IMG/VR virus record: IMGVR_UViG_3300025131_000180
Location: 1 to 36,480 of that record
Strand: one strand, 5' to 3'
Length of the DNA: 36,480 bases
DNA from: a virus
Every line of letters starts with the position of its first letter. Position 1 is the stretch's first letter. This document shows, piece by piece, positions 9,329-28,514 of this stretch. The notes below the pieces were generated by a model. It worked only from the letters and a program-made list of their open reading frames with translations. It was not told the DNA's origin and made no database searches. A program made the translations under genes and the position numbers.

Positions 9329-9658
9329 ATGGGATTAATCTACTTTATTTTAGCAGCCTATGGCCTAACTCAAATTTTAATTTTCGGTTCAATTTTTAAT
9401 AAGATACGCCCCTCAAAAAGCTGGTTGTATGGTTTTGGAAAGCTATTCCACTGCCCTCTATGTATGGGTTTTTGGGCGGGCCTTTTTTTGTTTGGGATTA
9501 ATGGACACACAGAACTATTTACTTTTGAGTACGAAATAGCTAATGCCCTTATCTTAGGGTGCTTGGCTTCGGGGACCACCTATTTAATGGGGGTTCTGGT
9601 TAACGACTTTGGGTTTAAAATAACCCATAAAAATGAAGGAGAATGTAATCATGATTAA
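9329..9658 (+). CDS. DUF1360-like small membrane protein
   Basis: A 109-residue protein with ribosome binding site AAGAGG about 7 bases upstream. Three hydrophobic segments are seen: about residues 2-20, 42-56 and 70-90. The segment between the first two contains the FHCPLCMGFWAG motif (about 40-51), which I associate with the DUF1360 family of small membrane proteins, including phage members. The paired cysteines may bind metal. A polar, Cys/His-containing tail follows (GECNHD). A membrane protein inside a head operon is unexpected. It may alter the host envelope rather than form part of the virion. Function unknown. Confidence 0.6.
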   Translation: MGLIYFILAAYGLTQILIFGSIFNKIRPSKSWLYGFGKLFHCPLCMGFWAGLFLFGINGHTELFTFEYEIANALILGCLASGTTYLMGVLVNDFGFKITHKNEGECNHD

Positions 9659-23843: not shown

Positions 23844-24458
23844 ATGGCCGACAAGACCAATTTCTGGAGTTCGACAACAATTGATCCAAAGCGATCTTTT
23901 CGCTGGGTATTGGTATTTGATCATATTCCCACATACGTTATTACAAAGGTAGGGAAGCCGAACTTTAGCGTGACACCGGTTAAACACAATTATATCGCTC
24001 ACGAATTTAAATATCCCGGCCGAGTAACCTGGGAAGATGTTCAAGTAACATTGGTCGACCCCGTATATCCAGACGCTTCTGCAAAAATTGTCAAAATGTT
24101 GCAGGCTTCCGGTTATGCTATTCCTGGCACTGAAGCAGATGCATCGATTTCTATGACAAAGAAAGATTCAAACCTTGCTGTAGGAGTTCCATCAATCGCG
24201 CAGCTAGACGGAAAGGGTCAGCAAATTGAACGCTGGACCTTACATAACGCTTGGCTTTCAAAGGCCGACTTTGGCGCGCTAGACTACGCCACCGAGGATA
24301 TGTTGAATGTGCAATTAACTTTTACATATGATTGGGCCGAATACGAAGGCGGTGGCACCCCCGAAGAGCCCGTCCCAGTTCCCATCATGACAAACGAACA
24401 GCCACAGGCCGCAACTATTCAAAAATACAAAGAAGAAATGGGAGCTACTAATACGTAG
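23844..24458 (+). CDS. 19: Tail tube protein (gp19-like)
   Basis: A 204-residue protein with an AAGGAG ribosome binding site. It opens with FWSSTTIDPKRSFRWVLVFD (about 6-25), a typical tube protein start, then THVITK-type strands, KYPGRVTWEDVQVTLVDPVYPD (about 60-81) and a closing beta strand LNVQLTFTYDWAEYE. It is slightly longer than T4 gp19 (163), with a Pro-rich C-terminal tail. Hexamers stack to form the inner tube through which DNA passes. A related protein is encoded immediately downstream. Confidence 0.85.
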   Translation: MADKTNFWSSTTIDPKRSFRWVLVFDHIPTYVITKVGKPNFSVTPVKHNYIAHEFKYPGRVTWEDVQVTLVDPVYPDASAKIVKMLQASGYAIPGTEADASISMTKKDSNLAVGVPSIAQLDGKGQQIERWTLHNAWLSKADFGALDYATEDMLNVQLTFTYDWAEYEGGGTPEEPVPVPIMTNEQPQAATIQKYKEEMGATNT

Positions 24459-24469
24459 GTACAAGAAAG

Positions 24470-25207
24470 ATGGCTGAACGCGACATATTTTCTCCCGGAA
24501 TTTGGCAATTTTGGAGCAACTCCAATGTAAGACCAAAAAGAAATTTCGAAGCTATGTTGTTGTTTGGCGACTTAATGTTCGGGGGAGCAGATCTCGACTC
24601 CTTTCCCCCATATATGGTTAAAAGCTTCAGCCGGCCGGGATACGACAGTATCGAGACACAAATCGGTGAGTACCAATTAGATTCTGGCGACTATGCTAAA
24701 ATAGATTATCCAACACAAGGCTTTAAAACAAAACCCCTGAAAGTCACCTTGGCGGATGTAAACGTGTTTGGTACACAAGGTGCAGATACAGCGGGCCACA
24801 TTCAAGCGGCGTTATCCATGATGCAGAAGACGTGGAAATTCGAAGAAACTGCTATGGGCCATCGAGAGGGCGCCGACAATGAAAATTATAATCGGCTTAT
24901 TGATGGCTATATAGAGGGAAGCCCTCAAATTATTACAATTCTTGAATTGGATGGCCATGGCGGCGCAAATGGCGAGTGGAGTATTTATAAGCCAGTTTTA
25001 ACATCTGTGGGCTTTTCTGATATTAATTATGATAGTGAGAATATAGCCACAGTAGATTTAACTTTTGCGTATAAAAATTTTAAATTTACGCAAGGTTGGA
25101 GTGAGAGACAGCTTCAGCGCCGGTTAGATGCCGCAGCAGCAGGCGCAGGTAATAATCTTAGTAGTTGGGAAAACAAAGGCTCAAGATGGCTTGTTCGCGG
25201 TTACTAA
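24470..25207 (+). CDS. Second tail tube-like protein
   Basis: A 245-residue paralogue of the preceding tube protein. The start IWQFWSNSNVRPKRNFEAML (about 8-27) matches FWSSTTIDPKRSFRWVL, and PTQGFKTKPLKVTLADVNVF (about 78-97) and ATVDLTFAYKNFKF (about 193-206) match the tube's strands. A longer central insertion and an Ala-rich C-terminal helix (QLQRRLDAAAAG) distinguish it. It could be a second tube subunit, a tube initiator at the baseplate, or a terminator. The 11-base gap to the first tube gene suggests joint expression. Confidence 0.7.
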   Translation: MAERDIFSPGIWQFWSNSNVRPKRNFEAMLLFGDLMFGGADLDSFPPYMVKSFSRPGYDSIETQIGEYQLDSGDYAKIDYPTQGFKTKPLKVTLADVNVFGTQGADTAGHIQAALSMMQKTWKFEETAMGHREGADNENYNRLIDGYIEGSPQIITILELDGHGGANGEWSIYKPVLTSVGFSDINYDSENIATVDLTFAYKNFKFTQGWSERQLQRRLDAAAAGAGNNLSSWENKGSRWLVRGY

Positions 25208-25246: not shown

Positions 25247-26116
25247 ATGAGTGCAAGATCAAATGAAAATAGACTTGGGGCACCCCCCACGCCAACCGAA
25301 GTAGATACGGGCTTTAAACAACCAAGCATGGAAGGTGATAGTTTAAAGTTCATAACGCCCACAGAATTTGCTGAACTTCCTAGCAAAGGGCACTTCTACC
25401 CCCCCGATCATCCCCTCTTTAAGCAAGAGGTTGTAGAAATCAAACATATGACCACAAAAGAAGAAGATATTTTAACTTCTGTGGCGTTGCTGAAGAAAGG
25501 GCTGGCTTTAGATAGGATGCTCGAAAGCATCATAGTAGATAAAAGAATAAAAACGGATAATTTGCTCGTGGGGGACAAAAACGCACTGCTCGTCGCTGCT
25601 AGAGCCCATGGGTATGGCGCCGCATATGAAACTGCAATTACATGTCCAAGGTGCGATGCAACTCAAGATTATTCTTTCGATTTAAGCGCTTTGAAAATAC
25701 AATTTCCTTCTGACGAGTTTATGGCAGAACACGAAATTAAAAGAACAGAAGTTGGCACCTTTTTGATCCCACTTCCCAAAACACAGTACACAATTGAAGT
25801 CCGGTTTTTGACAGGAAGAGACGAAAAGAAAATCCTGGAAGCGCAAGCACACAAAAAGAAAATGAATTTTCCGGAAACCCCAGCCAGTGACTTTTTGAGG
25901 CTTGTAATTGTTTCAGTTAATGATATAAAAAACGCAACATCCCTCAATGATTTTATAAATACGTTACCTGCGCTGCATAGTCGTTATATAAAAAGGATGT
26001 ACGAAAAATTAATACCTTCTCTTGATATGAATCACTCTTTTAGTTGCTCGGTATGCACCTACGAGGGGGCCCTGGAGGTCCCCCTCACCGCTGACTTTTT
26101 TTGGTCTATCTCTTGA
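25247..26116 (+). CDS. 26: gp26-like baseplate hub/assembly protein (zero-frame product)
   Basis: A 289-residue protein. Conserved-looking segments are PTEFAELPSKGHFYPPDHPL (about 38-57), VEIKHMTTKEEDILTS (63-78) and KGLALDRMLESIIVDK (84-99). Two cysteine pairs, C133-P-R-C136 and C267-S-V-C270, form a probable zinc ribbon that folds the ends together; T4 gp26 also has a CxxC. The protein lies between tube and tape measure genes, the classic place of tail assembly chaperones. Its stop (TGA 26114) comes 11 bases after a T7 run from which a +1 or -2 shift would add about 62 residues (see the next entries). Confidence 0.75.
   Translation: MSARSNENRLGAPPTPTEVDTGFKQPSMEGDSLKFITPTEFAELPSKGHFYPPDHPLFKQEVVEIKHMTTKEEDILTSVALLKKGLALDRMLESIIVDKRIKTDNLLVGDKNALLVAARAHGYGAAYETAITCPRCDATQDYSFDLSALKIQFPSDEFMAEHEIKRTEVGTFLIPLPKTQYTIEVRFLTGRDEKKILEAQAHKKKMNFPETPASDFLRLVIVSVNDIKNATSLNDFINTLPALHSRYIKRMYEKLIPSLDMNHSFSCSVCTYEGALEVPLTADFFWSIS
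26063..26086 (+). promoter_or_regulatory. Strong hairpin just upstream of the T7 slip run
   Basis: GAGGGGG (26063-26069) pairs perfectly with CCCCCTC (26080-26086). The 10-base loop can add two more pairs around TGGA and contains GGAGG, a sequence able to pair with the 16S rRNA end. The hairpin lies in the coding region, 9 bases before TTTTTTT (26096-26102). It may stimulate frameshifting; this role is inferred. Confidence 0.6.
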
Positions 26117-26291
26117 ATACATAGAACAAGTATATGAGCAGTTCTTTTTGATGAAGTATCATGGTAATTGGAGCTTAACTGAAGCCTACAACCTTCCAGT
26201 TGGCCTACGCAAGTGGTTTTTTGAGAGACTTGTGAAACAAAAAGAAGATGAAGCCGAGGCCCACAACTCTGCGCACCGCTCAAGAAGATAG
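26103..26291 (+). CDS. Frameshift-encoded C-terminal extension (gp51/tail-chaperone-like)
   Basis: The +1 frame is open from 26031 to the TAG at 26289-26291 and has no ATG until 26151. Yet its sequence looks coding from the T run on: GLSLEYIEQVYEQFFLMKYH, then WSLTEAYNLPVGLRKWFFER and a charged tail. This pattern resembles the gp51-type or chaperone C-terminal segments of T4-like phages. Slipping at TTT TTT T gives perfect re-pairing of tRNA-Phe in either +1 or -2 direction. A +1 shift would yield a fusion of about 347 residues. A sequencing error in the T run would look the same, and independent start at ATG 26151 is possible but would cut a helix. Confidence 0.65.
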   Translation, partial: GLSLEYIEQVYEQFFLMKYHGNWSLTEAYNLPVGLRKWFFERLVKQKEDEAEAHNSAHRSRR

Positions 26292-26348: not shown

Positions 26349-28514
26349 ATGGCACTCACACCAGACCAAGCGAAACAATTATCAGAAATCATGGCTGCTT
26401 TAAATAAGTCTGGCATCCAACTGCAAGAAACGTTAAAGCAGAACCTAGAAATACTTTTAAAACAAGGCACTCAATTAAAAGAAAATTCAGAAATCGCACA
26501 TCGTACGGCCTTATCTATGGCGCAAGGCAAAGACGCGACTGTAGCTACTAACGAGGCGCTTGCAGCATCGCTTGATTCGCGAATGCTGAGCTTGGACTAC
26601 GATCAGAAAGCACTACTCAACGCCGAAGCAACAAGAGACGCATTAATAACGGTACATAACACGCTCAAGGAAAAAAATTCTACTGAGGCCCGGGCGCTAG
26701 AGAACCTGATCAGACAATCCGAAGAACAGGTTAGAATCAACAAACAAACAACCGCAAGGAATGAGAGCACTAAAGATTTTAGCAAATTACAACTTGCCGC
26801 CGGCGCAGGCGTGGCGTTGTTGGCCGGCGCCGCCGGCGGAAGGTTCCTAAGAGCTGGAAAGGCCACCAAGACGGCTAAAGCAGGCAAAACAGCAGCAAAG
26901 GGAAAGGGCGCCCTCGGCGAGATCGGCAAGGTCTTAGGCATCACCACCGGGGCCAAGTACGCCGCAGATGCAGTCGGAGGCATGGCCAGCACCTGGCAGC
27001 AATGGGTCGGGCAAGCCAAGCAGGCCAACGAAGAAATTAACACGGGCCAAACAGCCCTAGCTTCATTTATGGGGCAAGTTAAGGATACTGACGCGTCCGT
27101 GCGCACTGCCACAACGGCCATCAACTCGGCCGGAATACAAACAGCTACTTTTGGTCAACGATTAATTCAAACCCAAGAAGAGCTGGCGCATCTTGGCGTT
27201 ACGGGCGCCCATGTCACTGGCGCCTACAAGGACATGATCGCCGAATCACGCACTTTGGGCACTCTCATGGGGCGCCTTAGCGGTAGAAATGATGTCCAGG
27301 CCGATTCGTTGGTCAAACTGGCCCTTCAGTTTAAAAGCGCGGGACTGACTACTAAAACTTTTGCTCAAGGTCTAGACATTTTAGGCAAGGGGTATAGAGT
27401 GAACAATCTAACAGCACAGTCGGAAGGGCTAGCCGAAGAGATCGTAGGGATCGCCGCTGCAACTGGCCAGGCAACAGATGCAGTCGGCCAGCAGTTCAAG
27501 GGGGCAATGGAAAGTTTAGCCGCCTATTCACTCCCACGTGCTAAACGAATATTCCGTGAATTGTCCGTCACTGTCGCAGAAACAGGAGTGGGAATGGAGA
27601 AGCTCCTGGCCGTCGCAGAGGGATTCGATACTTTAGATTCAGCCGCTTCTAAGGTTGGTAATTTAAATGCAATGTTGGGCGGCCCATATTTGAATACTTT
27701 AGATATGGTTAACGCTACCGAAGAAGACCGGATTGCGATGATAAGGGAGGCAGTCGAGGCTAGCGGTGAAAGTTTTGATTCAATGGATAGGTTTAAAAAG
27801 AAAGCAATTGCAAAACAATTGGGCGTTAGTGTGATGGAAGCTCGCAAGTTGCTAAGCGCAGATCAAGACATCATTGAGGCGAAAACTGCAGCTGCCCAAG
27901 ATACAATGGCCACGTCCGAAGAAATGTTCGATCAATCAAAGAAAAGCCAAGGCTTAGCAGCAAAAAATGCAGTTGCAATAAAGGACCAACTCGCCGCCGC
28001 CCAGAAATCGGCATTCCTGGTCACTAACGCTTACGAGCACATTGCGACCGCCGGCCGCAAGGTTAATGACCTTGTATTCAAGCTGGGCGAACAGGCAGAG
28101 GGACACATAGGTAAGTACGTCGCGGGCATGACTATAGAAACTGCGGCCGTATATCAAAAAGCCATAAACCAGGCGAAGCAGGGCGACATATCGTTTGCTC
28201 AAATTTTGACGCTTATGACTAGGGACGCTCAAATTGGTGCTAGAACGGTCGCTGGAATGGCCACCGGTCGATATGACAATCTGAAAGATCCGGAGACGCT
28301 AGAACAACAAGAGAAGCGCCAGAGGGGCGCCCAAGGAAGAATCCCAGCCACAGAGACAACGGTAAATCCTGCCGTTGAGGCAATAAAGCAGATTTTGGGT
28401 GGAGAAGGAGGCCTCACGGCAAGAATAGAGAATACTATAATGTTAGATGGTAGCGTTATAGCAAAACAGATTGATGAGAGAGTGAATTTAAAAATAAGAG
28501 AAGGCGTTAGATAG
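26349..28514 (+). CDS. Tape measure protein (gp29-like position)
   Basis: A 721-residue, Ala/Gln/Lys-rich, mostly helical protein directly after the frameshift region. The N-terminal ~145 residues are a long coiled-coil-like helix. A Gly/Ala-rich hydrophobic segment follows at about 152-168, then a basic Ala/Lys stretch. The middle carries LDTLDSAASKVGNLNAMLGG (about 427-446) and VNATEEDRIAMIREAVEASG, characteristic of tape measure proteins of marine myophages. By the usual 0.15 nm per residue rule the tail would be about 108 nm (T4: 590 residues, about 100 nm). That is an inference, since termini may not span. Confidence 0.82.
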   Translation: MALTPDQAKQLSEIMAALNKSGIQLQETLKQNLEILLKQGTQLKENSEIAHRTALSMAQGKDATVATNEALAASLDSRMLSLDYDQKALLNAEATRDALITVHNTLKEKNSTEARALENLIRQSEEQVRINKQTTARNESTKDFSKLQLAAGAGVALLAGAAGGRFLRAGKATKTAKAGKTAAKGKGALGEIGKVLGITTGAKYAADAVGGMASTWQQWVGQAKQANEEINTGQTALASFMGQVKDTDASVRTATTAINSAGIQTATFGQRLIQTQEELAHLGVTGAHVTGAYKDMIAESRTLGTLMGRLSGRNDVQADSLVKLALQFKSAGLTTKTFAQGLDILGKGYRVNNLTAQSEGLAEEIVGIAAATGQATDAVGQQFKGAMESLAAYSLPRAKRIFRELSVTVAETGVGMEKLLAVAEGFDTLDSAASKVGNLNAMLGGPYLNTLDMVNATEEDRIAMIREAVEASGESFDSMDRFKKKAIAKQLGVSVMEARKLLSADQDIIEAKTAAAQDTMATSEEMFDQSKKSQGLAAKNAVAIKDQLAAAQKSAFLVTNAYEHIATAGRKVNDLVFKLGEQAEGHIGKYVAGMTIETAAVYQKAINQAKQGDISFAQILTLMTRDAQIGARTVAGMATGRYDNLKDPETLEQQEKRQRGAQGRIPATETTVNPAVEAIKQILGGEGGLTARIENTIMLDGSVIAKQIDERVNLKIREGVR

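Follow-up and report, generated by a model that had tools for sequence, protein, structure and literature searches.

The DNA analysed here, called the window, is a viral stretch of 36,480 nucleotides (IMG/VR record IMGVR_UViG_3300025131_000180). Its plus strand carries, at positions 25247–26116, a zero-frame open reading frame of 289 amino acids, which very probably encodes the short form (TAC-N) of a tail assembly chaperone (TAC) of the T4 gp26 type. The protein matches PF12322 with an E-value of 6.6e-16 (score 59.1 against a cut-off of 24.5), confirming the gp26-like identity given in a preliminary description of this DNA; it also matches phrog_150 and contains zinc-finger-like CxxC pairs. 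It ends in ...LTAD-FFW-SIS, encoded by the codons GAC TTT TTT TGG TCT ATC TCT TGA. The T7 run at 26096–26102, read in the zero frame, is part of the putative slip site TTT TTT TGG (26096–26104, plus strand), and the TGA stop codon (26114–26116, plus strand) begins 18 bases downstream of the first T in this run; across 120 distinct sites this distance is 12–36 bases, mostly 15–18. The +1-frame extension (TAC-C, 26103–26291, plus strand) comprises 62 amino acids and a stop codon at 26289–26291, while the −1 frame at the slip site closes at once. These coordinates bear out the earlier description, in which the zero frame ends 11 bases after the T7 run and the +1 frame stays open for 62 codons past it. 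Two more T7 runs are found on the plus strand of the window, at 9483 and 34535. Searching the window for Rfam families and tRNAs returned nothing.

The extension is followed by an open reading frame of 721 amino acids (26349–28514, plus strand), presumed from its position to be the tape measure gene, as it sits where the annotated tape measure genes of Flavobacterium phage immuto and Listeria phage LIS04 sit. On this basis the place just before the tape measure gene, as first described, is supported. The product had no family match in the same searches that typed the zero-frame protein. The two adjacent genes at 23844–24458 and 24470–25207 both match tail tube families (phrog_4542), and the phage may therefore have two tube-type proteins.

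TAC-N and the extension were modelled as two separate parts. The AlphaFold2 (AF2) model of the zero-frame protein has a pLDDT of 84, and its top VIA match is the HK97 tail assembly chaperone (PDB code 2ob9), a weak match with a Z-score of 5.8, the next being 4.2. This match, with an rmsd of 5.9 over 86 residues and 8% identity, is below the level for safe fold identity, and Foldseek gives an E-value of 1.6 to the tail assembly chaperone fold; at the level of models, the HK97 match is weak but fitting. The extension is modelled as a compact three-helix domain (pLDDT 89.5), whose first helix starts four residues past the junction, so that initiation at internal TTG or ATG codons would cut the domain. 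Comparison of this model with the PDB gave no match, which is uninformative by itself. The domain DUF6760 (PF20546) scores 15.9 bits for the window, below the curated cut-off of 27, and 7 of 18 members match it weakly, with a best E-value of 6e-4.

Searches of Bacteroidota genomes with DUF6760 gave three matches. On contig 54 of the Bacteroidota genome G072 (L244:647–1194), a small zinc-finger protein with no PF12322 match is encoded after sheath-like and tube-like genes, and a DUF6760 domain comes directly behind it in the −1 frame, at a GGGGGGA stretch and with no canonical start codon. This single example resembles a contractile injection system, one in which frameshifting may also occur.

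Conservation of the extension and of the slip site

Relatives were collected from IMG/VR, MAG contigs and GenBank phages: the window protein retrieved 54 from IMG/VR, and broader profile searches contributed another 88 loci, with some overlap. The sets used below are 142 loci with a complete 3′ end, 120 distinct sites and 89 non-redundant sites.

The extension lies in the +1 frame in 141 of the 142 complete loci. The lone exception is LR756511, where it lies in another frame and has its own ATG. In this 595 kb phage (L004:3263–3420) a long zero-frame tail follows FFFP and the extension in the other frame has TAATGG, so it is probably a separate gene or a different kind of coupling. In 314 close pairs, the pN/pS ratio of the extension is 0.18 in the +1 frame, as opposed to 1.1 and 1.9 when it is read one or two bases off, and the extension is under purifying selection in the +1 frame only.

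The slip region of the 120 distinct sites is TTTTTTTGG in 105, TTTCTTTGG in 7, TTCTTTTGG in 6, and TTTTTTTAC and TTTTTTTTC in one each. The slip codon, taken as the second codon of the final Phe-Phe or Phe-Leu pair, reads TTT in 133, CTT in 7 and CTA in one of 141 loci; TTC makes up 21% of the Phe codons elsewhere in the gene, yet never occurs at this position. The conserved YTT-T permits re-pairing of the tRNA on UUU after a +1 step. In the phages LIS04, GXN1 and SP-15 (L005, L006 and L007) the extension is also in the +1 frame, but the Phe-Phe codons have no TGG after them, and the candidate slip codons are TTT with C or A as the next base, or a CC-CGA step; the extension of GXN1 is longer.

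The frame change falls on a homopolymer in a metagenomic contig, where an error of sequencing or assembly might be suspected. The same site is present in 120 distinct sequences, some of them without a long run, and the +1 frame, the slip codons and the coding selection are conserved among relatives, so that such an error, including a T6 run misread as T7, is excluded with near certainty. The T run itself, the conservation of which had been put up for comparison in the preliminary description, is kept at most sites and is shortened to T4 or T3 (TTCTTTTGG, TTTCTTTGG) at 13 of 120, with the frame relation unchanged. These 13 sites without a long homopolymer also make slippage of RNA polymerase, for which a stretch of seven identical bases might otherwise speak, an extremely improbable way of shifting the frame of the mRNA.

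Start codons and elements upstream of the slip site

A different way of expressing the extension would be as a small overlapping gene, with GGAGG as its own ribosome-binding site and a start about 15 nt before the junction, or with a non-canonical start. GGAGG stands about 9 nt ahead of the −15 codon; in 21 of 120 sites this codon is ATG or GTG. In T4, an internal product, 26′, is annotated for gene 26 and uses a non-AUG start. Against this reading, the −15 codon is not conserved and is represented by 30 different codons in the 120 sites, and GGAGG also occurs at −28 to −31, where the spacing is unfit for initiation. No ATG, GTG or TTG is present between the preceding +1 stop and position +42 in 26 of the 89 non-redundant sites; a start with a Shine-Dalgarno-like motif is found in 19 of the 89 and none such in 70, and one relative (L012) lacks any start codon from −75 to +102. 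The frame and the slip codons are conserved even at sites without a canonical start. In the window, the first ATG, GTG or TTG after the preceding +1 stop is the TTG at 26148, inside the conserved segment, in agreement with the original observation that the frame has no start until within that segment.

Judged from these sequences, independent initiation fails as a general rule, and we consider it very unlikely to be the route used. The 21 relatives with ATG or GTG at −15, placed to suit GGAGG, may have both routes. Two annotated genes begin at an internal ATG, the “baseplate hub assembly catalyst” of cyanophage S-RIM8 (45 amino acids; L152:3232–3369) and SP15_046 of SP-15 (39 amino acids; L007:3258–3377); both look like truncated parts of extensions that are reached by frameshifting.

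The Shine-Dalgarno-like GGAGG at 26074–26078 (plus strand), 17 nt before the T run, is a candidate pause or frameshift stimulator. Of the 89 non-redundant sites 66 contain it, where synonymous codon resampling leads one to expect a mean of 13.7 (maximum 23). Among the 120 distinct sites, 77 have it in exactly the same place (22 nt before the first T), 17 elsewhere upstream, and in 26 it is absent. It overlaps a Glu-Val pair, and the codon choice goes far past the need of the protein; the Val codon before the Glu-Val pair as GAG is GTG in 19 of 20, as compared to 17% of Val codons elsewhere. The Shine-Dalgarno motif is spaced 3 nt from the slip site in RF2 (+1) and about 10 nt in dnaX (−1). The 20 nt between GGAGG and the slip codon of the window fit neither of them.

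GGAGG lies in the loop of a 7-bp hairpin at 26063–26086 (plus strand; arms 26063–26069 and 26080–26086), 9 bases before the run. The preliminary description pointed to this hairpin, which is indeed present in the window; it is lineage-specific, being complete in 15 of 120 sites, with a few compensatory changes there, and absent in most others. As a general element it is unsupported, since only GGAGG is widespread. As a shared stimulator it was rejected, its pairing score being 436 against a shuffled maximum of 438. A second stem, TCCGC/GCGGA, which occupies the 17 nt immediately upstream of the T run, is complete in 33 of 120 sites (L040-type relatives), and stem and T7 run together look like an intrinsic terminator; with 361 against 360 in shuffled sequences it shows no clear excess and was likewise rejected as a shared stimulator. 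No conserved 3′ stimulator was seen, the mean z of RNA structure downstream of the sites being near 0.

Proposed mechanism and direction of the slip

The support provided by sequence comparison consists of the conserved frame relation, the conservation of the slip site and of GGAGG, the coding selection and the missing start codons. The conservation of frame, slip codons and coding among relatives upholds the programmed frameshift initially proposed. It is highly probable that this is a TAC gene whose zero frame encodes TAC-N and in which a programmed +1 frameshift on UUU_UUU_UGG gives a 347-amino-acid product, TAC-NC, with the predicted junction peptide TADFFGLSLEYIEQVYEQ. We infer slippage in vivo, its +1 mechanism and efficiency, as well as the chaperone function of the products.

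In the proposed mechanism most ribosomes would end at the zero-frame stop and yield the 289-amino-acid TAC-N, while a minority would pause with tRNA-Phe on UUU in the P site and UGG in the A site. The P-site tRNA would then slip one base forward, from UUU at 26099–26101 to UUU at 26100–26102, to be followed by GGU, and the slipped ribosomes would yield the 347-amino-acid TAC-NC, with the three-helix domain as its C-terminal TAC-C. If lambda gpG/gpGT is taken as the model, the tape measure protein would be coated by both forms and TAC-C would recruit tail tube subunits. The +1 step replaces the A-site codon TGG (11 per 1000 in the window) by GGT or GGC (18 and 36 per 1000, respectively), and the lower frequency of UGG is consistent with what PMC10885494 gives as the condition for slipping forward.

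The frames could also be bridged by a −2 slip, the shift that the preliminary description ascribed to the tail chaperones of Mu. Perfect re-pairing after −2 is possible on T7, and in known −1 cases an upstream Shine-Dalgarno motif at a longer spacing pulls ribosomes backward. However, six of the 120 distinct sites read TTC TTT TGG, where a −2 slip would place tRNA-Phe on UCU, while +1 keeps it on UUU. Seven sites read TTT CTT TGG, which recalls the CUU to UUU step of the RF2 +1 frameshift, and there −2 to UUC is also possible. Because −2 would lead to UCU at these six sites, the +1 slip is preferred, and −2 is regarded as very improbable; of the two re-pairings of tRNA-Phe first proposed, +1 would stay on UUU at all TTT sites. 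A +1 slip with UUU in the P site and UGG in the A site is favoured because re-pairing on UUU applies to both TTT and CTT sites.

The window and its clade do not share the −1 arrangement at an X_XXY_YYZ site; their extension lies in +1. The +1 arrangement is also found in Rhodothermus phage RM378, Flavobacterium phage immuto, Microcystis phage Mel-JY01 and the SP-15/LIS04/GXN1 group, whereas a comparable extension lies in −1 at T_TTT_TTC in cyanophage S-RIM8, Aeromonas phage 65.2, phage SRB7757 and Agrobacterium phage Atu_ph07. In the cyanophage type, U_UUU_UUC with the extension in −1 is found in 73 of 73 distinct sites.

The window-type and cyanophage-type extensions are related by hhalign with an E-value of 5e-8, and the latter matches the C-terminus of T4 gp51 with an E-value of 4e-11; reversed controls of these comparisons were negative. 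The direct comparison of the window type with T4 gp51 is weak (probability 3), and the gp51-like character attributed earlier to the extension is supported by way of the cyanophage extension. T4 gp51 is a PF12322 paralogue of gp26 with a C-terminal addition and is encoded apart, on the other strand, in line with the statement that T4 has gp26 and gp51 as separate genes.

A tree built from the zero-frame protein places every +1 row on one side (97/88) and groups the −1 rows of the cyanophage type with the T4 rows on the other (100/98). Atu_ph07, a −1 row whose branch is long, joins the +1 side at its base. Distributing the four labels over this tree takes four changes, one above the minimum, which suggests that the direction changed about once, with no polarity assigned. 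One account of the family, which we hold to be evenly balanced between right and wrong, is that the same Phe-Phe pair serves opposite shifts, −1 on U_UUU_UUC in the cyanophage branch and +1 on UUU_UUU_UGG in the large branch of the window, and that the T4 type dropped frameshifting through gene duplication. The +1 branch would use a GGAGG placed some 20 nt ahead of the slip codon, at a spacing unlike that of known bacterial stimulators.

Comparison with known systems

In many T4-like phages the gp51-type part is annotated as a tiny gene or missed. Sequence comparison strongly suggests that, across the large clade, this part is joined to the gp26-type product by a +1 frameshift; pipelines for annotation, like structural studies of T4-type tails, should hence seek a long and a short chaperone. 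Since the homologous extension is reached by −1 in the cyanophage type, the family is a natural experiment on the change of frameshift direction and also on the effect of a far-upstream Shine-Dalgarno motif on +1 slipping.

Frameshifted TAC genes are classical, lambda being an example. As in lambda gpG/gpGT, the gene of the window precedes the tape measure gene (presumed here) and would have a short and a long product with a shared N-terminus, the C-terminal domain lies in the other frame, and a stop follows soon after the slip site. Unlike lambda, which shifts by −1, the gene of the window would shift by +1 at UUU_UUU_UGG, and its family is PF12322. The best structural match of the TAC-N model, albeit weak, is to HK97, which is a siphovirus.

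Frameshifted TAC genes were reviewed in PMC5009743, still with the words “except T4”. The link between gp26 and gp51, presented as new in the preliminary description, is sound but is prior art, because Vladimirov et al. (2022), as described in the papers citing it, is credited with T4-like phages that have separate short and longer TAC genes (PMC10885494) and with poly-T “−1” signals in the TAC-N genes of T4-like phages (PMC12846349). The T4-like TAC genes, as reported there, share with the window the gp26-type TAC-N, the poly-T slip site and the TAC-C extension, T4 itself having the separate genes 26 and 51; the poly-T signals are called −1 (PMC12846349), unlike the +1 of the window clade. 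No +1 TAC in a clade this large was found in the literature consulted, in which Vladimirov et al. (2022) is represented by the papers citing it, and the fixation of the +1 direction throughout a large clade may be new.

The TAC gene of the haloarchaeal myovirus HSTV-2 has a frameshift reported as very likely +1 (PMC5009743), the direction proposed here, but HSTV-2 is an archaeal virus. In RF2 (prfB) and in the +1 frameshift of Listeria phage PSA, as proposed for the window, the P-site tRNA slips +1 next to a slow A-site codon. These systems differ from the window in their slip codons, and RF2 also in the much shorter distance of its Shine-Dalgarno motif; the CTT TGG variants found among the relatives of the window recall the CUU_UGA of RF2.
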